NCBI GenBank assembly: GCA_025355875.1
Contig: JANXYV010000152.1
Coordinates: forward strand, 1-45,838
Length of the DNA: 45,838 nucleotides
Origin: Prolixibacteraceae bacterium
GTDB taxonomy: Bacteria > Bacteroidota > Bacteroidia > Bacteroidales > Prolixibacteraceae
Direction of reading: 5' to 3'
The notes beneath the pieces were generated by a model, which was not told the origin of the DNA, ran no database searches, and saw only the letters and a list, made by a program, of their open reading frames with translations. The position numbers and the translations under genes were made by a program. Shown here piece by piece: positions 11,032-30,271 of the stretch (its first letter is position 1; every line of letters begins with the position of its first letter).

Positions 11032-11047
11032 TTATCTTTCCTTTTTC

Positions 11048-11162
11048 CTAAATAAACTTCTCCCTCTTCTGCAGATTAAACAATCCGTAAAGCACAAAAA
11101 GCATGGAGCCTACGGCCAGGAAAATGCGGTTTTTCATGGTAATTTCCTGCCATACCATTTCG
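11048..11162 (-). pseudogene. Duplicated 3' fragment of the ABC-2 permease gene (direct repeat copy 1)
   Basis: These 115 bases match 14512-14626, the last 37 codons plus stop of the ABC-2 permease gene, at 113 of 115 positions and in the same orientation. Both differences (GTA/GTG for Val and CTT/CTG for Leu on the - strand) are synonymous, so the fragment still encodes the same permease C-terminus and stop. Similarity may extend a few bases further (CTTTCC near 11036 and 14501) with an indel. No start or upstream part of a permease is attached, so it cannot be a functional gene. It is the left boundary of the AT-rich segment carrying the C10 protease. Confidence 0.95.
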
Positions 11163-13958: not shown

Positions 13959-14440
13959 AAACACTAGTATTAATAATAGTTCTCTGTCTGTTTTACAGTT
14001 GCAATTCATCTAAACAAATGAAAAATAACCAATTAAATAGTCCGAGTCCTCACATTTTTATATACAAAACTAAGGGCGATTACTATTTAAAAGTTCCAAT
14101 CTTACTTGCTGAGAACAAAGTGGATATAGTTTCATATCCTGCCCCAACTGACTTAATTATAAAAGAGAAGCTAAGTTTGCCTACAAAGTTATTGGATGGA
14201 TATTATCTTGACAATAGAGGGATTAACGTAAATGTTGCCTTTATCCAATTGAAGTATTCCGAGTATTCAAAATTGAGTCATCCCCCAAAAATAGATGACC
14301 TAAAACAGATGATAATTGACAATGATCCTCTTGTCGAATTATATGATTGCGGAGTACGTACAAAATATAAAAACATCGAAGAAGAACTCAATAAAATAAT
14401 TAACAAAGGAAATCTAACTTGCTTTAAACGAATAAAATAA
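13955..14440 (+). CDS. Small lipoprotein coupled to the C10 protease
   Basis: Protein of 161 residues, family not named with confidence. The N-terminus is a lipoprotein signal (hydrophobic run, lipobox L-F-Y-S-C with Cys16) followed by S, K and N residues. The mature part has K-G-D-Y-Y-L-K-V-P-I, V-S-Y-P-A-P-T-D-L and L-D-N-R-G-I-N segments, then a helical C-terminus with two cysteines. Its ATG overlaps the protease stop (ATGA), which implies coupled translation. In streptopain and related C10 systems an inhibitor is often encoded next to the protease, so a protective inhibitor or accessory role is a reasonable hypothesis, but I see no clear Spi- or staphostatin-like sequence. It shares the AT-rich composition of the protease gene. 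Confidence 0.75.
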   Translation: MKTLVLIIVLCLFYSCNSSKQMKNNQLNSPSPHIFIYKTKGDYYLKVPILLAENKVDIVSYPAPTDLIIKEKLSLPTKLLDGYYLDNRGINVNVAFIQLKYSEYSKLSHPPKIDDLKQMIIDNDPLVELYDCGVRTKYKNIEEELNKIINKGNLTCFKRIK

Positions 14441-14511
14441 CTAAAATTGCCAGATATAAATGGGATTCCTTCGTTAAAAACCGATAGAATTCCTTTTCCC
14501 CTTTCCTTTCG

Positions 14512-14626
14512 CTAAATAAACTTCTCCCTCTTCTGCAGATTAAACAATCCGTAAAGCACAAACAGCATGGAGCCTACGGCCAGGAAAATGCGGTTTTTCA
14601 TGGTAATTTCCTGCCACACCATTTCG
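14512..14626. repeat. 115-base direct repeat, copy 2 (intact permease 3' end)
   Basis: This is the partner of 11048-11162, with 113 of 115 identical bases in direct orientation. The two copies are 3464 bases apart start to start and bracket the protease-lipoprotein segment. This copy is the true 3' end of the permease gene. Confidence 0.95.
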
Positions 14627-15231
14627 TTGAGTCGGTTCGGAATATTAAAAGGATTCAGGAAAATATTCCACATGCTGTTATTCTGGTTGCCTGAAATGAT
14701 GAGCAGCAAAACACCGATAATCACCATCACGACCGCGGTTCCGTTTCCATTCCGGATGATGGTGGAGAACATGAAAGCCATCGTACCCAGGAAATAAATC
14801 GGGAACATCACATTCCAGGTCAGATCAAAAATACCAACCGGGGAAAGCAGGAAATAACTCATCGTGGTTATTCCAAACATCATCAGGAAGACCAGCACAA
14901 AAACAAGAACCAGGCGCACCAGCCATACTTTGTAACGATAGTCGGGGATTCCGAACAATATTTCCAGAATTCCGGTATCCAGATCGTTCTGTATTCCAAA
15001 GGTCATCGGGTAGAAAATAAGAAGGATCCCCGGCATGATCTGAAGTCCATAGATAAATCCTTCGTCAATCTGGGCGTTATCCAAAATCCGGGTAATGGAA
15101 ATGAAAAAGTAGAAAGCCAGGGCCGCCACCAGAAACCAGACAAACCGGTTGCCAAAAATGACCTTCAGGTTGTATTTCACCATTTTCCGGAACAAGGTCC
15201 AAATATTGGCGATTGAGATTGTTGATTGCAT
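14512..15231 (-). CDS. ABC-2 type transporter permease
   Basis: Integral membrane protein of 239 residues with about six hydrophobic helices (near 29-46, 62-80, 102-124, 137-157, 165-182 and 208-226). A cytoplasmic-type loop N-D-L-D-T-G-I-L-E-I-L-F after the second helix is typical of ABC-2 permeases (compare E-K-x-x-G-T-L-E). It carries no ATP-binding domain. The nearest one is the ABC ATPase fused to the RND pump, whose gene ends 117 bases upstream in transcription order, so the two probably form one ABC exporter. The last 115 bases of the gene are duplicated at 11048-11162. It is the last gene of the seven-gene export locus. Confidence 0.88.
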   Translation of the reverse strand: MQSTISIANIWTLFRKMVKYNLKVIFGNRFVWFLVAALAFYFFISITRILDNAQIDEGFIYGLQIMPGILLIFYPMTFGIQNDLDTGILEILFGIPDYRYKVWLVRLVLVFVLVFLMMFGITTMSYFLLSPVGIFDLTWNVMFPIYFLGTMAFMFSTIIRNGNGTAVVMVIIGVLLLIISGNQNNSMWNIFLNPFNIPNRLNEMVWQEITMKNRIFLAVGSMLFVLYGLFNLQKREKFI

Positions 15232-15348: not shown

Positions 15349-18300
15349 CTACTTCAAATCTTTAATCAAACACAAATACGCGTCTTCGAGAACCGGATTG
15401 GCCATGATGGCATCTTCGGTCGGTTTTTTCTTCGCCAGGAACCGCACCCTGATTTGGTCGCCCTGCCTCATGTGATGGGTAATCAGTTGTTTGTTTTCCA
15501 TCAGCTCGAATTCGGCCACCGACAAATCAAACTGCCAAACCATATTTTTGGCCAGATGTACCATGTCGGCAGGCGTTCCGTGGTATTTGACCTGTCCTCG
15601 GTTGATAACGGCCACTTGGTTGCACGAGCTTGAAATATCTTCGATGATGTGGGTCGAGAAAATCACAATCCGGTCACGGCTCAGTTCCACCAGTAAATTC
15701 CGGAAACGGATCCGTTCGCGGGGATCCAACCCGGCGGTTGGTTCATCAACCACCATGATTTTGGGCAGATGAAGCAGGATTTGTGCAATTCCGATGCGTT
15801 GTTTCATCCCTCCGGAGAAAGAACCGATTTTGTCGGCACGTTTTTCCCAGAGATGCACGGCTTTCAGCACATATTCAATTCTTTTTGACCGTTCTTCCTG
15901 ATCGGTCAGTCCTTTCAGGATCGCCTGATAATCGAGAAAATCTTCAGCGGGCATATTTTCGTAGGTTCCAAATTCCTGAGGGAGATAGCCGATCAGTCCC
16001 TGCAATTCCTCCCGTTTTTCCTGGGTATCGATACCGTTGATCCAGATCTTGCCGTAACTCTGTTCCAAAATGCCGCAAATGATGCGCATCATGGTCGATT
16101 TCCCGGCGCCGTTGGGACCAAGCAATCCAAACATTCCGGTTCCGATTTCAAGCGAGACCCCGTTCAAAGCTTTGAATGGCTGATGTTTCTTTCCAATAAG
16201 CGGTATTTGTTTCACCAAACGGAGCAGGCCACGCCGCATGGTTCCAAAACGTCCGGCGATGCGGTCGATGTTGATTTTTTCCTGATACAGTTTTTTAGAG
16301 GTCACCGAAATGACCAGCGCCAGGTACCACAAAATACCAAACGTGATGACCAGTCCGATGGTTTTATCGATCCTCCAAACCACCAGGATTTCGATCAGTG
16401 GTAAAATCCAGAACAGGAAAGTGCGCACCGATCTGTAAATTCTGGGTGGTCGTGCTTTTCCGATCGTTTCAGCCCTGAAATTCAGGAATAAGCCAAACGG
16501 TTTCCAGATGCTCAGGGCAAATTGTACGATCCCAACCGAAAGCCAAAGCGACCAAAAAGCCGAATGCAAATAGAAAAAGCTGAAATAATCCAAAAAGCCC
16601 AGGACCGGGATTTGCCAGATCAGGTAATCGAATTCGGACAAAGTATGATATTGCTTTTCGAGACCTGCTCTTCGACGGATTTTTTTACCCGATTCCCATT
16701 CACGGGCAAAACGGCTTTCGCGATCGTATATTTTTACCAGGTTCTGGATGCGTATATGGAGTACCTCTTCGTCGGCGATGAGCTTGGTTCCGGCTTTCCG
16801 CAAACTGTTGAGCACAAACCAGGTAGAACCGGGCACCATGATCACCACCAAAATAAAGTCGAGCATCTTCCACAATCCCGAATCCACTTTGAAGTAAATT
16901 AGTGCAAAAGAAGCGGCCATCAGGGCAATCATCGAAAGCCGGATGCGCAGTTTTTGTTCATGAAACCAATCGATGGCATTCTCCAATCCGGAATAAAAAG
17001 TTGGAATGAAAACCAGGGTCAGCAAGGTGCTCAAAGCCAGACCACCAATCACCACGATGGCAAACGGAGCGCCGATGGCACTCACATATTCGGCATCGCC
17101 CATAGCCAGAGGCAGCATCCCAACTATAGTTGTAATGGCCGTGATAAGGATCGGGCGGACCCTTGAGAGTCCGGCGGTCATCAGGGCGCGCGAACGCCGG
17201 AAGCCACGTTTTCGCAAAATATTGGTGTAATCAATCAGGATAATCCCGTTGTTGACCACGACGCCGATCAGGATCAGGAAACCGGTCAGGGTATTGGCAT
17301 TGAGCAGGCTGTTGTTGGTTACAATCAACGCCAAAAGCGATCCGATAGCTGCAAGCGGTATAGAGAACAGAAGTACGAAAGGTGTCGAAATGGATTCAAA
17401 AACCGCAGCCATGATCATAAATATCAGCAAGATCGAAGCTCCGATCATGAAATAAAATTCAGAAAAATCGGTTTCCTCATGAACCACTTCGGCGGCCACT
17501 CCCGATGGCAAATTGTAGTTGGCTACCAGTTCGTCAATTTCGTAGCGGTAGGCAGCCAGCAATTCTTTCGAATCGGCGGCCTCGCTCACAAAACGGTAAT
17601 TAATCTCAATCTGTTTTTCCTGATTCACACGATTGATTCCGGCCAGGCCGCTGGCATAAACAATGTTGGTGAAATCCTGCAGATCGTGAATGCCACCGTT
17701 GGCATCGTTCACCTGAAGCATTTTCAACTCGTCCATGGTGCGATCCAGCTTTTGCTTTTCGCCAACAACCGGTTCCTTTTGGGTGATGATAATTTCGTAA
17801 TTGTCAATCCCCTGTTTATATTGGATTCCGGTAGCAATTTCTTTGGAGAATGAATTGACTTCGGATAAAATATTGCTGAGAGTAATGTTGTATTGGCTCA
17901 TCAGCAAAGGATTGAAGTACAAATGAACCTCAGGGCGGTTGTCCGAAATATTCAGGTTAACCGACTGCACCGACTGCATCTGGTCGATGAAATATTTCAG
18001 GTCTTCGCCAACCGCCTGCATCTTTTTAAAATCTTGTCCTTTGAGTACAATTTTTTCCTGATCGGTCCCAATTCCCATCATTTTCTGGAAAGCCCCGCCC
18101 ATGTCGCGGCCACCTCCCTGAAAATTCCGGGTGCTCTGGGTTTGGGTAAACGAGATCGATGAAGCTTTAATTCCTTTGGTCCGGTCGCTGATATCTGATT
18201 TCACCTGGGCAAAACCCCGGTCGCCTACTTTTTCAAATTTTTCTTTCAGTTTGATGGTAACCACCGCCTCTTCCGCTTCAATTTTGCTGATCACATCGAG

Positions 18301-20061
18301 CTTTTCGGGCAAATCCTCCAGTTTCTTCTCTACTTCCTGAACGGTTTGATCAGTCGAGGCGAGCGATGATCCTGAAGGCATAGTCACATATAGGCGGATT
18401 TCCTTGTTTTCGACTTCCTGAAGCGAACTGATACTGACCGCAAGACTGATAAAAATGGCCAGAAAGAATAACACAATTCCGCCAATGATGGTGGTGGCCG
18501 GAGAACGCATGCACGATTTCAGGAAGACCAGATAGACCTGAACCATGCGCATATTGGTGGTTACCTTTTCATAGAAAATATTTTTGGCAACACGGCGCCG
18601 GAGCAGTGCATACGAGGCCATCGGAACCAGAAGCAGCGCAACGGCCAGCGAAACCAGGATCGTAGAAATGATTGAAATTCCTACATTAAACCCCAGCATT
18701 TCGACCATGAAATTCTTCGAAAACAGAAAAGGGACAAAAACAACAATGGTAGTCAGGGTGGAGGCCAGAATCGACCGCCAGACTTCTGTGGTTCCCTGTA
18801 CCACGGCTTGCAACGGGGCATACCCTTTCCCTGCAAGCCGGTAAATATTCTCGAGCACCACCACACTGTTGTCGAGCAGCATCCCGATGGCCAGTGCCAT
18901 TCCAACTAAAGTGAGGCTGTTAATGCTGATGTTGAACGCATAAAACAGGTTGAAGGAGGTGAAGATGGAAATAGGAATAGCCAAGGCGATGAACGAAACA
19001 ATGCGAAGGTTTTTCAGGAAAATCCATAACACAAAAATGGCCAGGATACCTCCAAGCAATGCCAGTTCCATTATCTGATTGATGTTCTTTTCCATCTGAT
19101 CGGCCGAGTTGCTGATTTCAGCAATCTCAATATCCTTGGTGGCCATTTTCTCGTTCAGTTTTTTCACAATTTTACGTGTCGCTGCCGAAAGTCGGATCTG
19201 GTTGGCTTGCGAATCGTTGACAAGCAAAATGGTTACCGCATCTTTTCCGTTCACCCGGCTGTACGAGGTTTCCTCTTTCACCCCAAACCTTACTTCAGCC
19301 ACATCTTTCAGCAAGATCGGACCGCCGGCAACCACCAGGTTTTCCAGGTCTTCCACTTTGGTATATTCGGCGGTGACATGCACAAAAAACTGTACCGATT
19401 TTTCCTTCAGGTTACCTACATAGGTTCGCAAACTGGAGTTTTGCGAAAGCAGTGACCGGATTCTTCCGGGAGTAACATGGTAAGCTTCGCAGGCTTTGGT
19501 GTCCAGAATAATTTCGATCGATTTTTGTTTTCCGCCATACACATTCACTGCAGCAATTCCGTCAATGTTTTCCAGATCCGGCTTGATATCCTGATCAACG
19601 ATGGTACGAACCCGGTCAATTCCACCTTCGCCGCGAGCCTGCAGCTCCATAAACTGGCTGTTCATCTGTTTCAGGTCGACCTTGGCCACGATCACCCTGA
19701 CATTGGCCGGCATCTTCGATTGGATCTCGGTAATTTTTTCCTGAAGTTTCAGGTAGGCATATTTGAAGTTAACCCCCTTTTTATAATACACCACAATGGT
19801 GGCTTGCCGCGAATTGATGTTTGACTCAATGGATTCGATGCCTTCGAGTGTGCCTATGGCACCTTCGAGAGGAACAACCACCTGATTTTCCATGTATTCA
19901 GGAGCCATTTCAGTGGCCGAATTGGCCTGAACGAACAGGAACGGAAGTTCGGCATTTGGCAACAATTCCACCGGCAGCTGTTTGTAGGAGACGTAACCCA
20001 AAACGGTCAGTCCCAGAAACAACATGCTGATCAGTATTTTTCGCTGTATGATGAATTTCAT
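15349..20061 (-). CDS. RND efflux pump fused to an ABC-transporter ATPase
   Basis: A single 1570-residue reading frame. The ATG at 20061 starts directly with the first RND helix (K-F-I-I-Q-R-K-I-L-I-S-M-L-F); a TTG at 20097 would add a stretch encoded by a G-rich repeat. Residues 1 to about 1020 are a complete HAE1-type RND permease with two helix bundles, two periplasmic porter regions, the helix-4 motif G-M-L-L-D-N-S-V-V-V (D-N, not D-D) and V-V-N-N-G-I-I-L-I-D in helix 10. About six further hydrophobic helices follow (about 1030-1270). The C-terminus (about 1280-1570) is a full ABC ATPase: Walker A GPNGAGKS at about 1315, signature F-S-G-G-M-K-Q-R, Walker B I-M-V-V-D-E-P, switch histidine in S-T-H-I-I-E-D. 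The ATPase closely resembles the separate one at 29378-30271. It probably serves the permease at 14512-15231. Confidence 0.95.
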   Translation of the reverse strand: MKFIIQRKILISMLFLGLTVLGYVSYKQLPVELLPNAELPFLFVQANSATEMAPEYMENQVVVPLEGAIGTLEGIESIESNINSRQATIVVYYKKGVNFKYAYLKLQEKITEIQSKMPANVRVIVAKVDLKQMNSQFMELQARGEGGIDRVRTIVDQDIKPDLENIDGIAAVNVYGGKQKSIEIILDTKACEAYHVTPGRIRSLLSQNSSLRTYVGNLKEKSVQFFVHVTAEYTKVEDLENLVVAGGPILLKDVAEVRFGVKEETSYSRVNGKDAVTILLVNDSQANQIRLSAATRKIVKKLNEKMATKDIEIAEISNSADQMEKNINQIMELALLGGILAIFVLWIFLKNLRIVSFIALAIPISIFTSFNLFYAFNISINSLTLVGMALAIGMLLDNSVVVLENIYRLAGKGYAPLQAVVQGTTEVWRSILASTLTTIVVFVPFLFSKNFMVEMLGFNVGISIISTILVSLAVALLLVPMASYALLRRRVAKNIFYEKVTTNMRMVQVYLVFLKSCMRSPATTIIGGIVLFFLAIFISLAVSISSLQEVENKEIRLYVTMPSGSSLASTDQTVQEVEKKLEDLPEKLDVISKIEAEEAVVTIKLKEKFEKVGDRGFAQVKSDISDRTKGIKASSISFTQTQSTRNFQGGGRDMGGAFQKMMGIGTDQEKIVLKGQDFKKMQAVGEDLKYFIDQMQSVQSVNLNISDNRPEVHLYFNPLLMSQYNITLSNILSEVNSFSKEIATGIQYKQGIDNYEIIITQKEPVVGEKQKLDRTMDELKMLQVNDANGGIHDLQDFTNIVYASGLAGINRVNQEKQIEINYRFVSEAADSKELLAAYRYEIDELVANYNLPSGVAAEVVHEETDFSEFYFMIGASILLIFMIMAAVFESISTPFVLLFSIPLAAIGSLLALIVTNNSLLNANTLTGFLILIGVVVNNGIILIDYTNILRKRGFRRSRALMTAGLSRVRPILITAITTIVGMLPLAMGDAEYVSAIGAPFAIVVIGGLALSTLLTLVFIPTFYSGLENAIDWFHEQKLRIRLSMIALMAASFALIYFKVDSGLWKMLDFILVVIMVPGSTWFVLNSLRKAGTKLIADEEVLHIRIQNLVKIYDRESRFAREWESGKKIRRRAGLEKQYHTLSEFDYLIWQIPVLGFLDYFSFFYLHSAFWSLWLSVGIVQFALSIWKPFGLFLNFRAETIGKARPPRIYRSVRTFLFWILPLIEILVVWRIDKTIGLVITFGILWYLALVISVTSKKLYQEKINIDRIAGRFGTMRRGLLRLVKQIPLIGKKHQPFKALNGVSLEIGTGMFGLLGPNGAGKSTMMRIICGILEQSYGKIWINGIDTQEKREELQGLIGYLPQEFGTYENMPAEDFLDYQAILKGLTDQEERSKRIEYVLKAVHLWEKRADKIGSFSGGMKQRIGIAQILLHLPKIMVVDEPTAGLDPRERIRFRNLLVELSRDRIVIFSTHIIEDISSSCNQVAVINRGQVKYHGTPADMVHLAKNMVWQFDLSVAEFELMENKQLITHHMRQGDQIRVRFLAKKKPTEDAIMANPVLEDAYLCLIKDLK

Positions 20062-20071
20062 TGTCAAAAAA

Positions 20072-20107
20072 TATAAGCCCCCTTCTAATTCCCCCAAGGG
20101 GGAAAGT
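20072..20107 (-). repeat. G-rich palindromic repeat, copy B
   Basis: Read on the - strand it is TTTCCCCCTTGGGGGAA, then TTAGA, then AGGGGGCTTA. It lies just 5' of the ATG of the RND-ABC fusion and faces copy C at 20155-20190 in the opposite orientation. AAGCCCC of this copy can pair with GGGGCTT of copy C, enclosing the whole gap. Confidence 0.75.
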
Positions 20108-20154: not shown

Positions 20155-20190
20155 TTAAGCCTCCACTTCGGGGAGGTTTGGAGGGGCTTG
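20155..20190 (+). repeat. G-rich palindromic repeat, copy C (inside a coding end)
   Basis: GCCTCCACTTCGGGGAGG, then TTTG, then GAGGGGCTT: the same layout as copy A. On the - strand it is read as the last codons and stop of the RND gene at 20155-23253, giving the tail Q-A-P-P-N-L-P-E-V-E-A. Confidence 0.75.
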
Positions 20191-23100
20191 GGGTTTTCTC
20201 AGCCCATCTAAAACATCGAACACGCATGGAATCACAATCAGCGACATAATGGTCGATGTGATCAATCCACCGATCACCGCAATGGCCATAGGCGAACGCA
20301 GCGAAACGCTGTCGCCGAACCCAAATGTGAGCGGAAGCATCGCGAGGATGGTGGTCAGTTTGGTCATTAAAATCGGACGGATACGCTGTTGCCCGGCCTG
20401 CTTAATAGCTTCAATCCGCGGAACTCCTTCCCGCTGAATTTGCAGGATCCTGTCAACCAAAATGATGGAGTTGTTCACCGCGATCCCAACTAGCATGATG
20501 ATTCCGATAATTGCCATGATGTTCAACGTCTTTCCCAGAATAAAGAAAATCAGGATTGACCCAACAATGGCAAATGGAATGGTGGTAAGGATCGTGAACG
20601 GATGGAGCAGCGACTCAAATTCAGCTGCCAGCACCATAAACACAAGCACAATCGACAGAAGTAAAGCAAAGCTGAGCGCATCCATCGATTCTTTGCGCTT
20701 TTCTTCCTCTCCGGTGATCTTGATTTTATAATCGGGTGGAAGAGCGATATCTGCAATGGCCAGGTTCACTTTTTGAACCATTTTATCCAATGCAATGTCC
20801 TTGTTCATGTAACCGGTAATTTTACCAATTCTGACCTGGTTTCTGCGGAATATTTCCTTGGGCGAAGTTCCTTGACGGACATCTGCAATTTCGTTGATCC
20901 GGATCACCTGTGTTCCGTTTTTGACGATGAGGTCTGACAAATCGGCCAAACCTTTATCGGGCAGGCGCAACAGGATGTCCTGCATTTCTCCTCCTTTTTC
21001 AACCGTTCCGACCGTTTTGCCGGTGAGTTGGTCTTTGATCTGGCTCACCACATTTGCCACGCTGAGATTGAAAATTCCGGCGCGCAAACGGTCAACCACG
21101 ATTTCGACTTCCGGCGCACCACCTTCCATCGAAGCATCGAGGTTATAGACTTCAGGAATGGTTTGTACCGAATTTTTAACCTGGTCTGATAAATCCTGAA
21201 TGATTTTCAGATCCTGTCCCTGAATTTCGATCACCAAAGGAGCTTCGTCGGTACCCATCAATCCGCCCAAAGCCGTTTGGTCCTGAACAAATTTGGTTTC
21301 CATATCCGGAAATTCGCCCAATGCCTGCGAAATGGATTGAATGGCCAGCGTGGAGCCAAACTTGCCATCGGGTTTCAGAATGATTTTTATACTGGCAGTA
21401 TTTTCGCCCTGAAACAGTGCGTCCTGACTGGCCAGCATCCCGGTTGACGGGCCGACCTGACTGTAGAGGGTTTCCAGGTGGTCGCCCAATACCTCCCGGA
21501 GCATGTTTTCCATATTTTCGACCGCTGCATTGGTGCGCATCAGGCGGGTTCCTTCCTGCATCTTCAGATTCAGAGTAAATTGCCGGGTTTCGGATTTCGG
21601 CATGAACTCAGTTCCTATATAAGGAACCAACAGAACCGATGAACAAAGCAATATCAGGGCTGAAATGATGACAATCCATTTGTGCTGAAGCACTTTCCCC
21701 AGGAACCTTCCGTATCCTTTTACCTGGACCGTATTTGCTGCCCCTGTTTTTGTACTGTTTTTGAAGAAATAATTATACAACATCGGGATCAGCAAAATGG
21801 CTGCGACCAGCGACGAAAGCAGGGAGAAGGTGATGGTCCATGCCTGATCGCGGAAAAGCGCGCCCGATGCGCCATGCAGATATACAATCGGTAAAAATAC
21901 AATGATGGTGGTAATGGTCGATGAGGTGATGGCACCGCTGACCTGGGAGGTTCCCTGAATAGCCGCATCTTTGACCGACATTCCGGTTTCGCGCAGCCGG
22001 AAAATATTCTCCATCACCACGATGGCATTGTCGACCAGCATGCCCGCACCGAGCGCCAGTCCACCTAGGGTCATGATATTCAGGCTGAGTCCGTTGAAAT
22101 ACATCAGGTTGAAAGTAGCGATGATCGAAACCGGCATTGAAACGCTGATGATCATGGTTGTTCCGATGCGGCGCAGAAAAACAAAAACGACAATGATGGC
22201 CAGAACCATACCAATCATCGAAGTATCTTCCACCTCGCTGATCGCATTGCTGATAAAGATGCCTTGATTGGAAACCACTTTGAACTGGTAGCCAGGCAGG
22301 GCTTTTTCCATCTCAACCAATGCTTTCGAAATTTCCTTCACCGCCTTCACGGTGTTGAAACTTGTTTCCTTATAAATGGACAATCCCAGACAACGAACCC
22401 CATTCATCCGGACAATGTTTTCCGGATCCTTGTTTTTGAAACTGACTTTTGCCACTTCGCGCAGGTAAATTGGCGCTTTTTGAGCCGTCAGATCTCCTGA
22501 AGTCACCGCTTTGTAGCCCACAATGGTATTCTCGAAATCGCTCAGGTCGGTAAGCAAGCTAACTCCTTTCACCACATATTTCAGGCCCATCTCGGTAATC
22601 GATCCTCCCGAAATACTTTGGTTGAAGCTTTGAATACGGGTGTTCAGTTCGTCCATAGTCAGGCCGAACGCATCGAGCATGTATTGATCGGTTTCGATCA
22701 GGACTTCATTTTTTTCAGATCCCGAAACCTCCACATCGGCGACTCCTTCTAGCCGTACCAACTCGTTTCGGATATAGTTTTCGGCAACCTTCCGAAGTTC
22801 GTTCATGTCGGTGATGGTTTCATGCGAAAGGCTAACCACCATGACTGGCGCGGTATTCGGGTCATGCTGGGTAATGTTGATCTGGTCGATAGTCTGGTTT
22901 TGAGCAAAAGCGCTCGAAGCTTTCTGAAGGTCGAGAAAAGCTTCGTCCATATCCTTGGTCCATGCATATTCCACGGTAATTTGTGCCGTTCCCACTTTTG
23001 AAACCGACGAAACCTGCAGGACGCCCGATTGCCTGATAGCCAAGGCTTCCAGGTTTTCGACAAACTGTTTTTCCATTTCTTCCGGTGGACGTTCGCCCGA

Positions 23101-23253
23101 TTTAATCTCAATGAACAAACGCGGGTTGTTGATCTGTGGGAACAGATCGATGCCCAGCTTACTGAAGGAAATGTACCCCAGCAAAACTACGGCAAGTACC
23201 AGCATCAGAATGGTAACCGGATAGTTGACCGCAAATTGTGTTAACTTCTTCAT
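20155..23253 (-). CDS. RND efflux pump inner-membrane permease
   Basis: A 1032-residue HAE1-type RND permease of normal length. It exchanges protons for substrate and works with an adaptor and a TolC channel to export drugs, lipids or metabolites from the inner membrane and periplasm. The first helix (about 10-30) is followed by a porter domain, helices 2-6 (about 335-500) with the helix-4 motif G-M-L-V-D-N-A-I-V-V near residue 400, a second porter domain and helices 8-12 with G-I-A-V-N-N-S-I-I-L-V-D. The second helix-4 aspartate of AcrB is Asn here, as in many Bacteroidota pumps. The last 11 or so residues are encoded by a G-rich repeat. It is adjacent to one adaptor and to a second RND protein, as in MdtABC-type systems with two different RND subunits. 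Confidence 0.95.
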   Translation of the reverse strand: MKKLTQFAVNYPVTILMLVLAVVLLGYISFSKLGIDLFPQINNPRLFIEIKSGERPPEEMEKQFVENLEALAIRQSGVLQVSSVSKVGTAQITVEYAWTKDMDEAFLDLQKASSAFAQNQTIDQINITQHDPNTAPVMVVSLSHETITDMNELRKVAENYIRNELVRLEGVADVEVSGSEKNEVLIETDQYMLDAFGLTMDELNTRIQSFNQSISGGSITEMGLKYVVKGVSLLTDLSDFENTIVGYKAVTSGDLTAQKAPIYLREVAKVSFKNKDPENIVRMNGVRCLGLSIYKETSFNTVKAVKEISKALVEMEKALPGYQFKVVSNQGIFISNAISEVEDTSMIGMVLAIIVVFVFLRRIGTTMIISVSMPVSIIATFNLMYFNGLSLNIMTLGGLALGAGMLVDNAIVVMENIFRLRETGMSVKDAAIQGTSQVSGAITSSTITTIIVFLPIVYLHGASGALFRDQAWTITFSLLSSLVAAILLIPMLYNYFFKNSTKTGAANTVQVKGYGRFLGKVLQHKWIVIISALILLCSSVLLVPYIGTEFMPKSETRQFTLNLKMQEGTRLMRTNAAVENMENMLREVLGDHLETLYSQVGPSTGMLASQDALFQGENTASIKIILKPDGKFGSTLAIQSISQALGEFPDMETKFVQDQTALGGLMGTDEAPLVIEIQGQDLKIIQDLSDQVKNSVQTIPEVYNLDASMEGGAPEVEIVVDRLRAGIFNLSVANVVSQIKDQLTGKTVGTVEKGGEMQDILLRLPDKGLADLSDLIVKNGTQVIRINEIADVRQGTSPKEIFRRNQVRIGKITGYMNKDIALDKMVQKVNLAIADIALPPDYKIKITGEEEKRKESMDALSFALLLSIVLVFMVLAAEFESLLHPFTILTTIPFAIVGSILIFFILGKTLNIMAIIGIIMLVGIAVNNSIILVDRILQIQREGVPRIEAIKQAGQQRIRPILMTKLTTILAMLPLTFGFGDSVSLRSPMAIAVIGGLITSTIMSLIVIPCVFDVLDGLRKPQAPPNLPEVEA

Positions 23254-23342: not shown

Positions 23343-24401
23343 TTATTTCACGATCTTCACCTTTGAGCGGTTTTTCAGGGTCTCAAATCCTTTGATCACC
23401 AACCGGTCATTCTTTTTTAATCCGGAAGTTATTTCAGCCGTATTTTGATTCTCGAAGCCAATGGTGATGCGCTTTTCAGTGGCTGTGCCGTTATCCACGA
23501 TGAACACCGATTTCCCTCGCTGGCCCGAAATGATGATGTTTTTGGGGATCACAATCACACTGTCGTGTTTGGCCAGAACAATGTCGGCTTTGGCAAACAT
23601 ACCCGGACGAAGCTTCAGTTCGGGATTTCCTACTTCGATTACGCCTTTAAAAGTGCGCGTTTCGATGCTGATTGCCGGGGAGAGTTCCTTCACTTTTCCG
23701 GTCAGGGTATCGTTCGGAAGGGTATAATTCATGATCCGCACTGCCTGATCTATCTGAACATCACTGATGTATTTCTCCGGAAGATTCACTTCGACGGTCA
23801 TGATACTGTAATCCATCAGGCTAGCCACTGAACTGCCGGTGGCTAACTGGGTTTCGTTGGTAATGGCAGGAATATCAGTAATTACGCCTTTGAAAGGTGA
23901 CCGGACCTGCATCTTTGCCAGCAGGAGATTGGCCCGTTCAAAAGCATCTTTAGCATTGGTATAGTTTACTTCCGAATTCCGGTAATCGAGTTGCGTAACC
24001 CCACCTTTTTCGAACAACGACTGTTGTTTCTTCATGGTTTGGTCCGTTATTTCGAGGTTCAGCTTTTTGCTTTCGAGACCAATACTGTTCACATATTCGG
24101 CATCTTCCAGCTGAATGATTACCTGACCGGATTCAACTCCATCGCCCAGGGCAAATGGTCGCCTGGTTTTGGGATTGATCAGCAACTTGTATTTACCGGT
24201 CATCTCGGTCTTCAGAACTGTTGTTTTGGTGGCGTTGAGCGTACCGGTGGTATTGATGATTTTTTCGATCGAACCGGGCTTGATGTCGTTTACTGAAACA
24301 GGTACAGCCAATTCGGCGGTTGTTGAAGCTGGCTGGTTGTTACACGCTGTGGTCGCCCCAATCAGGGCGATCAAAGCAATCAATTGGTGAAATGTTTTCA
24401 T
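23343..24401 (-). CDS. RND periplasmic adaptor (membrane fusion lipoprotein)
   Basis: A 352-residue HlyD/AcrA-type adaptor that bridges the inner-membrane pump and the TolC channel. The lipobox A-T-T-A-C puts the lipid-anchored cysteine at residue 20. Then come a beta-barrel/lipoyl half (about 40-115, with D-G-V-E-S-G-Q-V-I-I-Q-L-E), a short helical hairpin (about 118-165), the second lipoyl half (V-R-S-P-F-K-G-V-I-T-D) and a beta-barrel with the typical R-P-G-M-F-A-K-A-D-I. The membrane-proximal end (I-V-I-P-K-N) closes the protein. It is the only adaptor in the locus and would have to serve both RND proteins. It starts 14 bases after the TolC gene. Confidence 0.93.
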   Translation of the reverse strand: MKTFHQLIALIALIGATTACNNQPASTTAELAVPVSVNDIKPGSIEKIINTTGTLNATKTTVLKTEMTGKYKLLINPKTRRPFALGDGVESGQVIIQLEDAEYVNSIGLESKKLNLEITDQTMKKQQSLFEKGGVTQLDYRNSEVNYTNAKDAFERANLLLAKMQVRSPFKGVITDIPAITNETQLATGSSVASLMDYSIMTVEVNLPEKYISDVQIDQAVRIMNYTLPNDTLTGKVKELSPAISIETRTFKGVIEVGNPELKLRPGMFAKADIVLAKHDSVIVIPKNIIISGQRGKSVFIVDNGTATEKRITIGFENQNTAEITSGLKKNDRLVIKGFETLKNRSKVKIVK

Positions 24402-24415
24402 AGTATGGTTTGTTT

Positions 24416-25900
24416 TTACTTTTTAAGCATGTATTCAGGTATGATGGGCTGATTTTTCTCAAAATCGTAAAGCGATTGGATTTTCAGGTTGAGTAACTCA
24501 ATTTTATAATCAATCAGCGACTGGGCATACGACATTTTCTTTTGTGAAAGCTGGGTCTGGAACAGGTTCATGTCCATGCTGGTGAGGTCGCCGTTGGCAT
24601 ACCGTTCAAGGTTGATCTCGTAGGTTAACTGTGCATTCTTTTCATTCTGGGTGGCAATTTCAATCTGGTTCACCAGGTTTTTGAGGTTGCGGTAAACTTT
24701 CCGGATATCGACAGTGATTTGTTTCTTCTGTTCATCCAGATTCAGGTCCTGAGTCTTGATTACCGCTTCCTGGGCTTTGATGCGGGCTTTCTTTTCGCCC
24801 CAGTCGTAAAGCGGCACATTAAACGAAACGGCCACCCTTGGGTTGTTGGTTGGATTTTGGTAAATATTCTCAAGGAGTGGATCGTCGCCACTGATACCCA
24901 CCGACAAACTGATATCTCCCCTGAATTCGTTGATCGCCTTGGTTCGGATCAGGTCGAACTGCGAAGTTTCGATGCTGATCTGACGCTGGCGCAGTTCCAT
25001 TCTTGAATTCAGTCCATACTCGATGGCTTTTGTTACATCGACCACCACCGGGTTCATGGCCACATCGGTCATCACGGTAATTTCGTCCATGATATTCATC
25101 CCGATGTACTGTTTGAACAAATCTTTGTTGTTGTCCAGATTGACCTGAGCATTCTCCAGGGTTGATTTGGCCGTGGCGAAGTTTAATTCAGCCTGGTAGA
25201 GTTCTTCTTTGGCCGAAATTCCGGCAGTTACTTTATTTTGGGTGATCTCGTAACTTTTTTGGGTATTGGCAAATTCGTCCTGCGAAATATTCAGGCTCAT
25301 TTGCGACAGGTAAACATTGTAAAACAATTGAGTCACCTGCTTTTCAAGGTTGAGTTTTTGCATGGAATAATTCAATTGAGCATTCTCCAGGTTCAACTCC
25401 AGTTGTTTCAGCTGAAGTTTGGTCCGGTTGTAGGTGAAAATGGGCTGGGTTACACTCAGTGAAAGATAATTGGTGAATGCAGTGCTGTTCTGGCTGCTGG
25501 TACCCTGGATGCTCGATTTGTCCTGCCACCCAAACCGGTTCACCAGGCTGATAGTTCCATCAGTAGGGAGAATGGGTTGGGAAACGGTGAACGTTCCGAA
25601 GGATTGGGTAGTCTGGCTGGTGAACCATTTCGCATTGTAATTATCGAACGACCGGGTCTGATCGTAACTAAACGGAGTAACATTCAGCGAAAAATTCGAT
25701 TTGAGCGCGGCGTTTTGCGCTTTCAGCGTTTCTTCAGAATTCTCCAGATTCAGCAAGGAGCGCCGGATGTCGGGACTGTTGTTGCTGGCAATATCCAACG
25801 CACGTTCCAGCGTCAGTATTTGCTGGGCATTTGCCGAAAGCAAAGCCGGACCGAATATGAACAAGAGAAGTCCCCTTTGGATCAGGTTTTTTAATCGCAT
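24416..25900 (-). CDS. TolC-family outer-membrane efflux channel
   Basis: A 494-residue outer-membrane factor. The start at 25900 is chosen because it begins a clean signal peptide (M-R-L-K-N-L-I-Q-R-G then a hydrophobic run ending LSANAQ); an earlier in-frame start at 25969 would translate part of a palindromic repeat. Two outer-membrane-efflux repeats are visible, each with long alpha-helical segments (helix starts such as L-T-L-E-R-A-L-D-I-A and N-S-R-M-E-L-R-Q-R-Q) and beta segments. Three such chains form the tunnel that carries substrate out of the cell. It is followed 14 bases later by the adaptor gene, so the two are surely cotranscribed. Confidence 0.92.
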   Translation of the reverse strand: MRLKNLIQRGLLLFIFGPALLSANAQQILTLERALDIASNNSPDIRRSLLNLENSEETLKAQNAALKSNFSLNVTPFSYDQTRSFDNYNAKWFTSQTTQSFGTFTVSQPILPTDGTISLVNRFGWQDKSSIQGTSSQNSTAFTNYLSLSVTQPIFTYNRTKLQLKQLELNLENAQLNYSMQKLNLEKQVTQLFYNVYLSQMSLNISQDEFANTQKSYEITQNKVTAGISAKEELYQAELNFATAKSTLENAQVNLDNNKDLFKQYIGMNIMDEITVMTDVAMNPVVVDVTKAIEYGLNSRMELRQRQISIETSQFDLIRTKAINEFRGDISLSVGISGDDPLLENIYQNPTNNPRVAVSFNVPLYDWGEKKARIKAQEAVIKTQDLNLDEQKKQITVDIRKVYRNLKNLVNQIEIATQNEKNAQLTYEINLERYANGDLTSMDMNLFQTQLSQKKMSYAQSLIDYKIELLNLKIQSLYDFEKNQPIIPEYMLKK

Positions 25901-25937
25901 ATCGAATATCATATTAGGTATATATTTCCAGTTTCTG

Positions 25938-26031
25938 TCATTAATGTTCATTAGGTCATTTATCGTCATTGATTGCTGATTTGCTCAGTATAATGACAAA
26001 CAATGACGTGAAACAAATGACAATTAATGAC
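25938..26031. repeat. Palindromic CAATGACG repeat 5' of the TolC gene
   Basis: Imperfect inverted repeat. GTCATTAATG...GTCATTTATCGTCATTG (25938-25971) faces CAATGACGTG...AATGACAATTAATGAC (26001-26031). It fills the gap between the permease/peptidase-like gene and the TolC gene. Elements with the same AATGAC/GTCATT theme are familiar from Bacteroidota intergenic DNA. Confidence 0.65.
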
Positions 26032-26038
26032 TATGTTT

Positions 26039-29000
26039 TTACTGTTTCACCAGCTTCACTGCATCGGCCACAACCACCTGAGCCGCCGACTTATTCCCCA
26101 GTTCCACTTTTACCGTATCGCCCGTAAAATAGAATGAGCCGAGACTGTTCCAGCCATCATCGGCGGTTTTCAAGTCAACCACTACTTCTTCCTTTCCTTG
26201 ACCGTGATTGATGGTATACGTGTATTCGCCACTGGTTTCCTGATTATCGCGGCGACCGCGCCGGTTTTTTGCAATATAACTGAATACTTCATAGGTTCCG
26301 TCGCCTTTGATAGGTATGCTCCAGGTCACTTTCTTCTTGCCGTCGCCCGAGCGAATGTAATGTGCAGAGCGAATAAACTTTCCAAAATAGCTGCTGTTGG
26401 TAGTTGCACGCCAGGTGCGCGGAGCATGCCAGGTATTCATCCCGATGAAACGGTCCTTGCTTTGATCTTCCTTCAGAAGTATCCTTTGTAAAAGACTGTA
26501 ATCTTCGGTCACCGAAAAACGGAAGGTGGAATCTTCATCATCCGATATAAATTCCCCGACTTCAGCCAAACGCACCGGGCTATCCGATATTTTTTCACCT
26601 TCATAAGGGATTGCCTTGGTATCCTGTTCAATATTATCGAGCGGAAGCCTGAGTTCAGAAGGAATATTCCTGGAAGCCAGCGTGTTTATTGAAATATTTC
26701 GCGGAGTTCCGTCGAGAAGGTAACTCACTTCCTTGGTTTGTCCGCCTTCGAGATACAGCAACTTGTTAATGGTTTCCATATTGGCACCACCGCCGGCAAA
26801 TCTTCCACGTCCCGGACCACCGCCTTCTCCCAGCCTGAACTGAACCGAAACAATGCCTTCGGCTTTCTCGGTATTCGAAATTTTGAATTTGACCATAGTT
26901 TTGAGCCTGTCGCCATCGAGAACATTCACTGCTTTTACCCCACCAATCAGATATCCGGGCAATTCTTTGCTCCGGAACCATTTTTCCATGAATGGAAGCA
27001 AATCGGTATTGAATTGCTGTTTGATACGGCTATTAAAATCTTCGATCGTAGTCGAACCAAATTTGATGCTTTTCAGGAATTTGAACATGAAATCGTTGAA
27101 TGCCTCGTCGCCCGCCTTTTTCTTGATAATTGAGAACAGGGATTGTCCTTTCAGTTGAATCACATTATCTATGATTTGCGTTTTCGAAGGGTCGTCGAGC
27201 AATTCTGCAAACGAAAAATCGAGCAGTGCCAGGTTGGCCTGTTCATTTTCGGTCATTCCCTGCATATCCCGCATCCAGCCCTGAGCGCCCGACTCTGCCG
27301 ACTGCTTTAGGTAGGCTTCAAAAATACGATCAGTAATCGGCCATTTATCGGATTCAATAAAATAGGCATGATTGTAAAACAACGGGAAACAGTACAAAGG
27401 ATTTGCCTTCTCAGTAACCTGACCCTGATTGAAATCGGGCCGGGCTGTTGCCTGAGTAAACAAAGCCAGAAAATTATTCACAACCATTATCTTTTTCTCC
27501 TGAGGGGTCATTTGTGCATCGTTTCCCCTTCCACCCCAGCGATCCATCCGTTTGATACTCCCTTCAAAATCAGCTTCCTGAATGGTCAGACCTTTCTCGG
27601 AAAAAAGTACGGTTTCGGGCTGAACCTGTTCTCGTTCGCCCATCAGGGTTCGCGGATAGGAATAAAACTGTGCCGGAACTTCAATTAGGTTAAACCGCTG
27701 GAAAGGATAAAACAAGTCGATTTTGCGCTCATAATCTTTGAGCGCGGTTTTAATCAGATCTGGAATGGTATCCTTGACCGGCTCGAGAAATTTGCTGAAA
27801 TAATCGTGTTTCGGGTGTAGGTACAAACTGAAAACCAGACCATCGATCGTATCCGTTTTTTGAATGTAGTTCCCAATGACCAAAGAAATCTGTGGCAAAT
27901 TTCGCTTGTTCGTAAAGCTGAAAACTCCATCTTTTTGTTCCACCTTGCCTTGTGAAATGGCGGTCAGTCCAGGTTTGGTCTTTACCGAAACCTCGAAACT
28001 GCTAAACTGTTTCTGTATCCATTGCTTGTTTTGCTTCCCAAAGCTGGCGCCGGCGATCGGGTACCAGTTGCATTCGCGGGTTAGCAAGACGAAATCGGGC
28101 GAAACAATGGCCGAGCGTTTGTCGATTTTGTACATGAATGACTGATTGGGCTCCTGAAGCGTTTTATCGTCGATATCCAAAAAACTGGCCGCATCGTTCA
28201 GGCTTCCACGATAGCTGAACTCAATATCGGCAGTTTCGCCCGGGCCGAGTTTGTTTCCCGAAAATTCAATCAGCTGAAGTTCCCGTTTTGGATTCGTTTC
28301 TTGTCCGTTGAAAGTGACTTTGGTCAATTCCAGACCGGGATTCAGGCTGAAAACAAAATGATCTACCTGATCCTGATGAGGATTGGTCACTTTCAGTTTT
28401 GCAGTTACCTCCAGAATACTTCCCTTATGATCGACCTCGATCTGGTAAGATCCGACTTTTAACCGGGGAGTATTCATATTTGCATCGTTCAGGGCACGGA
28501 TATTTTCTCTCAACTTCTGGTTTCTAATGAAGGAAGAAACATGTATATCGCCCAGCCAAATTCCGGCAGCAAAAAACAGCAAAGCAGGAATCAAAGTAAC
28601 GGTATTGCTGAAAGGGCTTTGCGGCAGGCGCTTCAGAAGTGAAATTGTCAGGAAGATAAAGGCAGTACCGAAACAGACGTACATTCCGCGGTGAATGATA
28701 ATTGTATGAAGGTTGCCAAACCCAATAAAATCGGATTTCAGCAACGGAATGCTGTAAGCCATGTAATCGAACAGAAAATAGTATTTTGTATTGAGGTAAA
28801 AAATGGTAATGGCCACATATCCAAGAAGGAGAATAAAAGTGATTGCCTGATTTTTCAGGATACTCATGATAAAAAACGAAAGTCCGAGAATAAAAATCAG
28901 GGTCGGCAAACTGATGATCAGGAAATAACTCACATAAGCCATCCAATCGACGGCAACCCCTTCAGCAATCAGATTGAAAATCAGCGCTTCCGATAATACG

Positions 29001-29365
29001 ATCAGGTTCAGGATCATAAAAACAACCAGGTTCCCGATGGTTTTGCCGGCCACATATTCCCCGTTCGACATCGAGCGGATATAAATTACGTCGGTAGTGT
29101 CCAGTTTTTTGTCGCGCTTCAGGAAGTCAGATGCCAGGAAAATGGCAATGATGGCCTGAACGGTATTCAGTATCAAAAGGTTGACATAAGGAATAACCGA
29201 TGGAATGGCTTTCATCTCCCAGTTTCCGTTGATAATGAGTGTTCCCAGATTGAAGAAGAACAAAAAAAACATAGCCAGAAAAGCAAAAATCCGGAAAAAC
29301 CAGGAACGAAGCAGCGTGGTTATTTCGTATTTGGCAATAGAAGTTATGTTGTGGACAGATATCAT
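26039..29365 (-). CDS. ABC-2 permease fused to an inactive-looking M1 aminopeptidase domain and a golvesin-like tail
   Basis: A 1108-residue, three-part protein. Residues 1 to about 280 hold about seven membrane helices with the K-K-L-D-T-T-D-V-I-Y loop typical of ABC-2 permeases. Residues about 300-850 resemble M1 aminopeptidases: a beta N-domain, R-E-C-N-W-Y-P-I, then F-N-L-I-E-V-P-A-Q-F-Y-S-Y, where the exopeptidase region is expected. I find no HEXXH zinc motif in the stretch after it (about 590-720), so catalysis is unlikely. The last 140 residues (about 970-1108) match the golvesin C-terminal-like domain (D-G-T-Y-E-V-F-S-Y, W-N-S-L-G-S-F-Y-F, V-V-V-A-D-A-V-K-L-V). The permease-M1 fusion is an architecture I know from Bacteroidota; the missing motif and the tail are what is odd. 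The ATPase gene lies 12 bases upstream in the same transcript. Confidence 0.88.
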   Translation of the reverse strand: MISVHNITSIAKYEITTLLRSWFFRIFAFLAMFFLFFFNLGTLIINGNWEMKAIPSVIPYVNLLILNTVQAIIAIFLASDFLKRDKKLDTTDVIYIRSMSNGEYVAGKTIGNLVVFMILNLIVLSEALIFNLIAEGVAVDWMAYVSYFLIISLPTLIFILGLSFFIMSILKNQAITFILLLGYVAITIFYLNTKYYFLFDYMAYSIPLLKSDFIGFGNLHTIIIHRGMYVCFGTAFIFLTISLLKRLPQSPFSNTVTLIPALLFFAAGIWLGDIHVSSFIRNQKLRENIRALNDANMNTPRLKVGSYQIEVDHKGSILEVTAKLKVTNPHQDQVDHFVFSLNPGLELTKVTFNGQETNPKRELQLIEFSGNKLGPGETADIEFSYRGSLNDAASFLDIDDKTLQEPNQSFMYKIDKRSAIVSPDFVLLTRECNWYPIAGASFGKQNKQWIQKQFSSFEVSVKTKPGLTAISQGKVEQKDGVFSFTNKRNLPQISLVIGNYIQKTDTIDGLVFSLYLHPKHDYFSKFLEPVKDTIPDLIKTALKDYERKIDLFYPFQRFNLIEVPAQFYSYPRTLMGEREQVQPETVLFSEKGLTIQEADFEGSIKRMDRWGGRGNDAQMTPQEKKIMVVNNFLALFTQATARPDFNQGQVTEKANPLYCFPLFYNHAYFIESDKWPITDRIFEAYLKQSAESGAQGWMRDMQGMTENEQANLALLDFSFAELLDDPSKTQIIDNVIQLKGQSLFSIIKKKAGDEAFNDFMFKFLKSIKFGSTTIEDFNSRIKQQFNTDLLPFMEKWFRSKELPGYLIGGVKAVNVLDGDRLKTMVKFKISNTEKAEGIVSVQFRLGEGGGPGRGRFAGGGANMETINKLLYLEGGQTKEVSYLLDGTPRNISINTLASRNIPSELRLPLDNIEQDTKAIPYEGEKISDSPVRLAEVGEFISDDEDSTFRFSVTEDYSLLQRILLKEDQSKDRFIGMNTWHAPRTWRATTNSSYFGKFIRSAHYIRSGDGKKKVTWSIPIKGDGTYEVFSYIAKNRRGRRDNQETSGEYTYTINHGQGKEEVVVDLKTADDGWNSLGSFYFTGDTVKVELGNKSAAQVVVADAVKLVKQ

Positions 29366-29377
29366 AGCGGTTGCGGT

Positions 29378-30271
29378 TTATATGGCTGTCCACTGGTTTA
29401 AGTTATTTTCCATAAAATACACGTAGGCGTGTTCGAGATTAGGAGCGATATTTTGCCCGCTATAGCCATTTATTGAATCGGCCACCACCTGGATTTCCCA
29501 ACCCTCGCTGGTGGGCACATTGGAGATTACCGGATATTTTTCATTGATTTCAAGGTATTCAGTCTCACTTGCCTCGATGAGCCACACTTTCCCTTCAGCC
29601 TTGGTGACCAGTTCATCGGGCGAACCTGTGAAAGCCAGACCTCCCTGATTGAGAAGCGCCATATCGGTACATGAACTGGAAATGTCGCCCACGATGTGAG
29701 TCGAAAGTATGATAATGACGTCCTGAGTAGATATGGTGGAAAGTAGATTCCTGAAACGGATGCGTTCTTCGGGGTCGAGACCGGTAGTTGGTTCATCAAC
29801 GATGATGATTTTAGGTTCGTTGATCAGGGCCTGGGCAATTCCAAGGCGCCGCTTCATTCCTCCTGAAAGTTTGTTGGCCTGGCGATCGCGGGCTTCGAAC
29901 AAACCCACTTCCTCAAGCATTTTATCAACAGCCAGTCTGCGTTTTTTCGTATCTTTCATTCCGGCCAAACGGGCTGCATAGTCCAGGAATTCGTAGGTTT
30001 TAAGATGTGAGAAGAAGCGAAAATCCTGTGGAAGATATCCCAGCATTTCACGAATTTTATCGCGGTCTTTGCTCAGGTCAAATCCATTCATGATTACTTT
30101 TCCTGAAGAAGGCTGCATCAGGGTCACCAAAATGCGCATCAGGCTCGACTTTCCTGCTCCGTTGGGTCCAAGCAAACCGAACATCCCGTTATTAATTTCC
30201 AGATTGACATCTTTCAGGGCGTGATTGCCATTAGGATAGACTTTGTTCAGGTTTTCGATGGTTATCTGCAC
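29378..30271 (-). CDS. ABC transporter ATP-binding protein
   Basis: A 297-residue ABC ATPase. Walker A is GPNGAGKS (about 37-44), the Q-loop is Y-L-P-Q-D, the signature is L-S-G-G-M-K-R-R, Walker B is I-I-I-V-D-E-P-T-T-G-L-D and the switch histidine lies in L-S-T-H-I-V-G-D. All catalytic elements are intact. The C-terminal 80 residues form the extra domain usual for ATPases that serve ABC-2 permeases. The start codon is GTG (30269-30271 read on the - strand); no ATG of suitable position is present. It is the first gene of the seven-gene locus and its partner permease is the next gene. The R-F-R-N-L-L and D-I-S-S-S-C segments are shared with the ATPase fused to the RND pump, showing that the two are paralogues. 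Confidence 0.95.
   Translation of the reverse strand: MQITIENLNKVYPNGNHALKDVNLEINNGMFGLLGPNGAGKSSLMRILVTLMQPSSGKVIMNGFDLSKDRDKIREMLGYLPQDFRFFSHLKTYEFLDYAARLAGMKDTKKRRLAVDKMLEEVGLFEARDRQANKLSGGMKRRLGIAQALINEPKIIIVDEPTTGLDPEERIRFRNLLSTISTQDVIIILSTHIVGDISSSCTDMALLNQGGLAFTGSPDELVTKAEGKVWLIEASETEYLEINEKYPVISNVPTSEGWEIQVVADSINGYSGQNIAPNLEHAYVYFMENNLNQWTAI

Follow-up and report, generated by a model that had tools for sequence, protein, structure and literature searches.

The stretch of DNA analyzed in this work (the window) comprises 45,838 nucleotides and is one of the 230 contigs (C87) in the draft genome of a Prolixibacteraceae bacterium. On its reverse strand, the window carries a cluster of seven genes, arranged in the order NBD1, PERM_M1, OMF, MFP, RND1, RND2-NBD2 and PERM2, and separated by intergenic gaps of 12 to 117 bases. 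The first gene (29378..30271) encodes NBD1, a stand-alone ABC ATPase recognized by Pfam in which the catalytic motifs are present. It is followed by PERM_M1 (26039..29365), with an ABC-2-like membrane domain, a degenerate M1-peptidase-like domain and a Golvesin_C domain; by the gene of a TolC-like outer membrane efflux protein (OMF, 24416..25969), identified with Pfam; by the gene of a periplasmic adaptor (MFP, 23343..24401), whose match to TIGR01730 is above the cut-off; and by RND1 (20155..23253), a permease of 1032 aa assigned with Pfam and by comparison of the clusters. The last two genes encode the RND2-NBD2 fusion protein (15349..20061), an uninterrupted open frame of 1570 aa, and PERM2 (14512..15231), an ABC-2-like permease of 239 aa assigned with AlphaFold2 and Foldseek. 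ATPases, ABC-2-like half-permeases and RND subunits are thus each encoded twice in the cluster, and the adaptor and the channel once each; with its adaptor and TolC-like genes, the cluster includes the parts of an RND tripartite pump. This seven-gene cluster, with the second ATPase and the second ABC-2-like permease, had not been part of the original prediction for this DNA.

The region that flanks PERM2 has features of its own. A direct repeat of 125 nt, 95% identical, occurs at positions 11038-11162 and 14502-14626 of the window; the second copy spans the 3' end of PERM2, and the first lies beyond a gene for a C10 family peptidase (11352-13958; according to Pfam, with a Spi-type inhibitor domain and a Por_Secre_tail sorting domain) and a small frame (13955-14440). 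The arrangement looks as if the peptidase gene and the small frame had been inserted beside the cluster, duplicating the end of PERM2.

An RND permease and an ABC ATPase in a single polypeptide

It had been claimed that the gene at 15349..20061 encodes an RND permease and an ABC ATPase in one polypeptide, and this was borne out. The frame opens with an ATG at 20061 and runs without a stop through 1570 aa; a TTG at 20097 is a possible alternative start. Pfam detects ACR_tran across residues 2-1024 (16990..20058, reverse strand) with 561 bits, against a cut-off of 28, so that the protein has a full-length RND domain of the HAE1 type, and ABC_tran at residues 1299-1443 with 96 bits, also above the cut-off. 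None of the subfamily cut-offs of NCBIfam was reached among the best 25 of 190 matches, and models of this type may therefore misname the fusion family. Among these best 25 matches, the top RND model scores 461.9 against a cut-off of 1250, and the best models for the ATPase part, GldA and DrrA, are both below their cut-offs; for GldA (TIGR03522) the score is 184.4 and the curated cut-off 402.6.

Family-averaged hydropathy, with overlapping peaks grouped, reveals six TM-like regions between the RND domain and the ATPase, at about residues 1045-1253, and AlphaFold2 also places helices in this region, in agreement with the about six extra membrane helices that had been anticipated. The only match of this linker in Pfam is FxsA (E 0.056), below the cut-off. 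The linker is poorly conserved in comparison with the ATPase, with a mean column identity of 44% and 8 invariant columns in a query of 261 residues. To evaluate the ATPase we used a set of 29 sequences, the window protein and 28 relatives, which are related to one another and hence are not independent samples. In this set the Walker A residues K1321 and T1323, Q1362, the signature residues S1416 and G1418, D1439, E1440 and H1471 are identical in 29/29. The intact Walker A, signature, Walker B and switch histidine noticed earlier are thus conserved throughout and, judged by sequence, the domain has the complete motif set of an ABC ATPase, including the Q-loop and the catalytic glutamate.

Membrane helices are predicted within the fold of the ATPase

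A conserved motif with the consensus I-x-I-x-x-L-V-K-I-Y is found between the second and the third TM-like regions. It ends in Tyr1112, identical in 29/29, which we take to be the A-loop position of the ATPase and presumably the residue that stacks on adenine. In NBD1, the counterpart motif ITIENLNKVY is, by its position, the N-terminal strand, and the Walker A region lies at most about 25 residues downstream. In a splice test, the ATPase part of each fusion (residues 1293-1560) was scored against a profile built from 13 full-length NBD1 proteins after every 20-residue segment of the same protein's linker had in turn been joined to its N-terminal end. The piece that ends at the tyrosine of the motif completed the ATPase best in 29/29, with a gain of 11.2-18.2 bits; pieces lying more than 15 residues from the expected place gained 2.6-9.3 bits at most.

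An AlphaFold2 model of residues 1000-1570, made with 28 relatives, reached a mean pLDDT of 81.2 and a pTM of 0.64. In this model two helices, a and b, come first; helix a covers residues 1038-1058 (16888..16950; helix 39-59 of the model, also indicated by hydropathy) and helix b residues 1062-1091 (16789..16878; hydropathy and AlphaFold2). They are followed by the strand 1103-1112 (16726..16755), which ends in Tyr1112 and is identified as the first strand of the ABC ATPase by conservation, AlphaFold2 and the splice test. Then come a helix at 1117-1131 and helices c-f, within residues 1147-1260 (16282..16623; hydropathy, AlphaFold2 and splice test), and the ATPase resumes at about residue 1296. 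The rest of this ATPase, NBD2, extends over residues 1296-1570 (15352..16176; Pfam, conservation and AlphaFold2) and contains all the catalytic motifs; all these segments are encoded on the reverse strand. The segment 1103-1112 is the sole strand ahead of residue 1296, and therefore, in the model, the partner that DSSP assigns to it has to belong to the ATPase. A Foldseek search with the model retrieved ABC ATPases, with 4yer as the best match (E 3e-20).

From sequence scoring and the model, four helices are predicted to be inserted in the ATPase between its first and second strands, two helices precede it, and NBD2 does not appear to have a continuous ATPase fold. To our knowledge, it is in itself unusual for membrane helices to interrupt the fold of an ABC ATPase. 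The earlier placement of the ATPase at about 1280-1570 holds for the motifs and has to be corrected for the start, which moves to the strand at 1103-1112 with four helices intervening. It had also been left open whether the extra helices are a transmembrane domain of their own or a tether; the description as a link applies to the two helices that join the RND domain to the ATPase, and the remaining four lie within the ATPase as an insert. The helices were also considered as an ABC-2 domain, and this was discarded given that they show no kinship to the neighbouring permease (hhalign probability 0.4%).

The reading frame is continuous in related genomes

An assembly join or a missed stop can be ruled out as the origin of the fusion, since the frame is unbroken in independent genomes and also in isolates. 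When 8 candidates were scored per genome, residues 1-1570 were matched in a single open frame in 18/22 genomes of the same genus. One further genome (G017) matched residues 49-1570 in a frame of 1576 aa, another (G007) showed only a match of 182 residues at the start of a contig, and in a third (G008) the fusion is in two pieces on two contigs. In genome G003 (G003:C52:39418-44141) the fusion appears as two overlapping frames with a break near residue 325, which is either a pseudogene or a sequencing error. Genome G016 has a full copy (84%) and in addition, on its contigs C84 and C1, two pieces with an identity of about 59% whose protein ranges overlap; the piece on C84 extends to the end of its contig, and the pieces perhaps represent one or two further divergent copies. 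In the same family, 11/14 genomes matched from residue 1 to at least residue 1567 within one frame and two (G026 and G029) gave partial matches; for G033, a single contig that is 99% complete, there was no match at E 1e-60 among the 8 of 63 candidates scored.

Using only the linker as the query (residues 1030-1290), and counting the genome of the window in both cases, we found it in 40/295 genomes of the order and in 6/395 genomes sampled from the phylum. In the order, 32/40 carriers have it in frames of 1515-1640 aa and 8 in shorter frames, and each of these eight (in G684, G702, G564, G706, G516, G686, G047 and G058) reaches the end of a contig. Neither the linker nor the linker plus the ATPase was seen as a separate gene in the searches of the order and the phylum, in which the linker occurred only in fusions or in frames cut by the contig. 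G050 was considered as an unfused ancestor and rejected, its contig stopping within the gene.

Conservation of the cluster and distribution of the fusion

A scan of genome contigs yielded at least 588 stretches with at least 581 relatives, from which the best 80 loci were kept. Among the matches listed, 28 of the 36 loci examined in detail (L099-L134) contain fused copies. Of the other eight, L125 is a member of the same cluster cut by the contig, and seven loci (L127 and L129-L134) have the RND domain without the linker. In the remaining 44 of the best 80 loci, the matches are confined to RND residues, up to 1050. Among the matches listed, the closest relative is a Prolixibacteraceae MAG with 87% identity, with the records of the own genome possibly outside the scan, and the fusion is carried by Draconibacterium mangrovi, Prolixibacter bellariivorans, Maribellus maritimus, Parabacteroides massiliensis, Bacteroides sp. 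224 and Marivirga sericea. The genera Draconibacterium, Prolixibacter, Marivirga and Parabacteroides are represented by isolates, and records of the family bear the names of gut genera (Parabacteroides, Bacteroides, Odoribacter) as well as of environmental ones. The fusion is also found in MAGs labelled as other phyla, Krumholzibacteriota, Zixiibacteriota and Latescibacterota. For the last of these, 2/16 genomes of its phylum match, the Latescibacterota MAG itself included, which makes a binning error less likely there; the second copy starts at the beginning of its locus. None of the best 5000 plasmid records covers 80% of the C-terminal query, and the ten plasmid matches listed are to the ATPase part alone, with at most a few residues ahead of it.

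In 21/28 fused loci all seven genes are at least partly visible, with constant order and strand, and the other 7/28 are cut by the end of the contig or of the flank inside the cluster, the visible genes being in the same order. In one locus (L123) the sequence covers the fusion itself alone; PERM_M1 is split into several frames in L107 and L116, and in L107 this also applies to OMF. The same gene order was found in further genome stretches. The conserved cluster gives the impression of a single machine that combines two exporter types.

The gene next to the fusion had been described as an ABC-2 permease. The AlphaFold2 model of PERM2 (pLDDT 85.7) does resemble one, with long helices and a short helix between the second and the third, and its 18 best Foldseek matches are ABC transporters (PmtCD, ABCG2, NosDFY/NosFY, ABCG25 and ABCA7 chains). 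PERM2 has no Pfam match at 0.001, and the Foldseek E-values are weak: probabilities of up to 1.00 go along with a best E of 0.0095, none reaching 0.001, and unrelated membrane proteins appear from rank 19. On the basis of the model, PERM2 is probably an ABC-2 permease. PERM_M1 matches ABC2_membrane_2 weakly (E 0.011); in Pfam, its Peptidase_M1 match is below the cut-off and that of Golvesin_C, at the end of the protein, above it. The motif HExxH, which we take to be the active-site motif of M1 peptidases, is present in 0/23 full-length copies, and PERM_M1 could have a role in binding instead of acting as a peptidase. Along with this absence, many residues of PERM_M1 are conserved.

NBD1 is the closest ATPase relative of NBD2 in the genome (44% identical; the next one, 35%). 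A tree of 54 rows (22 of NBD1, 29 of NBD2 and three of the outgroup) separates NBD1 and NBD2 by one branch with a support of 96/87, and the fork of NBD2, rooted on the three outgroup rows, has a support of 85/94. Because each group is on its own side of the branch, the pair is old.

Proton relay residues of the RND domain

The positions of the Asp-Asp-Lys relay of AcrB are occupied in the fusion by D397 (29/29), N398 (26/29) and N937 (29/29); the counterpart residues are visible in the alignments of MdtB and CmeB. Judged from these residues, the fusion does not appear to have a relay of the AcrB type, with Asp-Asp in TM4 and Lys in TM10. The same pattern extends to other RND proteins: in the 8 RND rows outside the 28 fused loci, one of which (L125) is the cluster member cut by the contig, so that 7 lie truly outside, Asn occupies the two TM10 positions in 8/8 and 7/8, and the RND1-type rows have D in 34/34 and N in 32/34 in TM4. 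Given that the pattern is common to RND proteins without a fused ATPase, it is no evidence that the fusion caused a loss of proton drive. Another RND protein of the same genome (L001) retains Asp-Asp and Lys. A further RND permease of this genome (L003, on contig C115) lies in a frame of 1488 aa, about 450 aa beyond the usual length.

Discussion

Starting from the fusion, the ATPase split according to sequence scoring and the model, the cluster and the conserved catalytic residues, all of which were established above, we propose, with somewhat more confidence than doubt, that the fusion protein is the linking subunit of a hybrid exporter that spans the envelope, in which a heterodimeric ABC-2 transporter is bolted to an RND-adaptor-TolC pump via NBD2. 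NBD2 would pair with the stand-alone NBD1 beneath the half-permeases PERM_M1 and PERM2 to give one heterodimeric ABC exporter, an assembly that suits the gene content and is the simplest way to read the cluster. RND1 and RND2 together would make up a mixed trimer that joins the adaptor and the TolC-like channel. This trimer may contain two RND1 and one RND2, a ratio that we take over by analogy from MdtBC; a single NBD2 would thus meet a single NBD1, and the trimeric state of the pump would be reconciled with the dimeric state of the ABC transporter. Driven by ATP, the ABC-2 part would take the substrate from the cytoplasm or the inner membrane and bring it to the periplasmic side; the RND pump, covalently joined to this transporter, would then hand it on through the adaptor and the channel. 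By way of the helices, the nucleotide site of NBD2 would be anchored to the membrane, and motion may be passed between the parts. The substrate could be a peptide, a lipid or a small molecule; which of them cannot be told. It is also possible, although we put this forward only tentatively, that the ABC-2 transporter and the RND pump are mechanically coupled through the shared polypeptide into one exporter with two energy sources, the helices threaded beside the nucleotide site physically linking the ATP cycle to that of the RND pump.

Other explanations have to be weighed against a linking subunit. The ABC-2 exporter and the RND pump could work independently, each with its own energy source, the fusion providing proximity or subunit dosage and the helices inserted in NBD2 acting as a passive anchor. 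In its favour, the components of an ordinary tripartite RND pump are encoded in the cluster and so, to the degree that the weak permease matches indicate, are those of an ABC-2 exporter; the poor conservation of the linker relative to the ATPase also suits this idea. However, the insertion point right after Tyr1112 is fixed in 29/29, and no relative with a separate linker was seen, while a mere tether is expected to be lost or moved at times; we consider this explanation rather unlikely. The question also arises of which partner NBD2 would serve. If it energized the RND domain directly, with the helices as a coupling device, ATP would replace the proton gradient or act beside it, an idea that finds some backing in a relay that reads D397/N398/N937 instead of Asp-Asp-Lys while L001 keeps the canonical residues.

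We judge an ATP-driven RND pump improbable, given that RND proteins without a fused ATPase have the same relay pattern, and that PERM2 and PERM_M1 require ATPases, of which the cluster holds exactly two. An ATPase for the ABC-2 permeases is more likely, because both an additional ATPase and an additional ABC-2-like permease are found in the cluster, even if a homodimer of PERM2 could in principle be served by NBD1 alone. NBD2 might instead sense ATP and regulate the RND pump by gating it, without driving transport, in line with membrane helices that lead directly into the nucleotide-binding strand, but this is very improbable, since Glu1440, His1471 and the signature are strictly conserved, as in the motor of an exporter that hydrolyzes ATP.

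Comparison with known systems

A published description of a fusion between an RND permease and an ABC ATPase was not found in the open-access literature, which was covered in part and included few subscription papers; within this coverage, the earlier claim that the architecture is undescribed stands, and it is plausible that the fusion represents a new kind of machine. Among the closest known systems, MdtABC-TolC has two RND genes, and HAE1-type tripartite pumps of this kind share with the cluster the ACR_tran domain, the adaptor and TolC-like genes and the two RND subunits; the best sequence match of the fusion in the PDB is MdtB. In contrast with MdtABC-TolC, here an ABC ATPase is fused to one of the RND proteins, the Asp-Asp-Lys relay is not conserved, and the cluster also encodes a further ATPase along with two ABC-2-like permeases. 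In ArsA-ArsB, a secondary-type carrier can be joined by an ATPase, but the families are unrelated and there is no RND-ABC fusion in that system.

MacAB-TolC also couples an ABC motor to a TolC-type exit. According to two published accounts, MacB, an ABC permease whose ATPase is N-terminal, is unrelated to RND (PMC8277102, PMC5673888); the fusion differs from MacB in that its ATPase is C-terminal and interrupted by helices and its membrane part is ACR_tran. Exporters in which ABC-2 is fused to an M1 peptidase form the family TC 3.A.1.145, for instance Q1D520, as described in PMC3924187. As in Q1D520, PERM_M1 unites ABC-2-like and M1-like domains, whereas it lacks HExxH (0/23), has an additional Golvesin_C domain in the window protein and is linked to an RND pump. 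For the PERM2 model, the first ranks went to ABC-2 exporters of the NosFY, PmtCD and ABCG type, with weak E-values; unlike in these exporters, one ATPase is free here and the other is fused to RND.

ABC and RND exporters are regarded as alternative motors for a shared adaptor-TolC exit. A protein with both motors, in a cluster that seemingly holds the full set of parts of each, would represent a third exporter design, and such a fusion offers a natural test of how an ATP cycle and a proton-type cycle can be coordinated.
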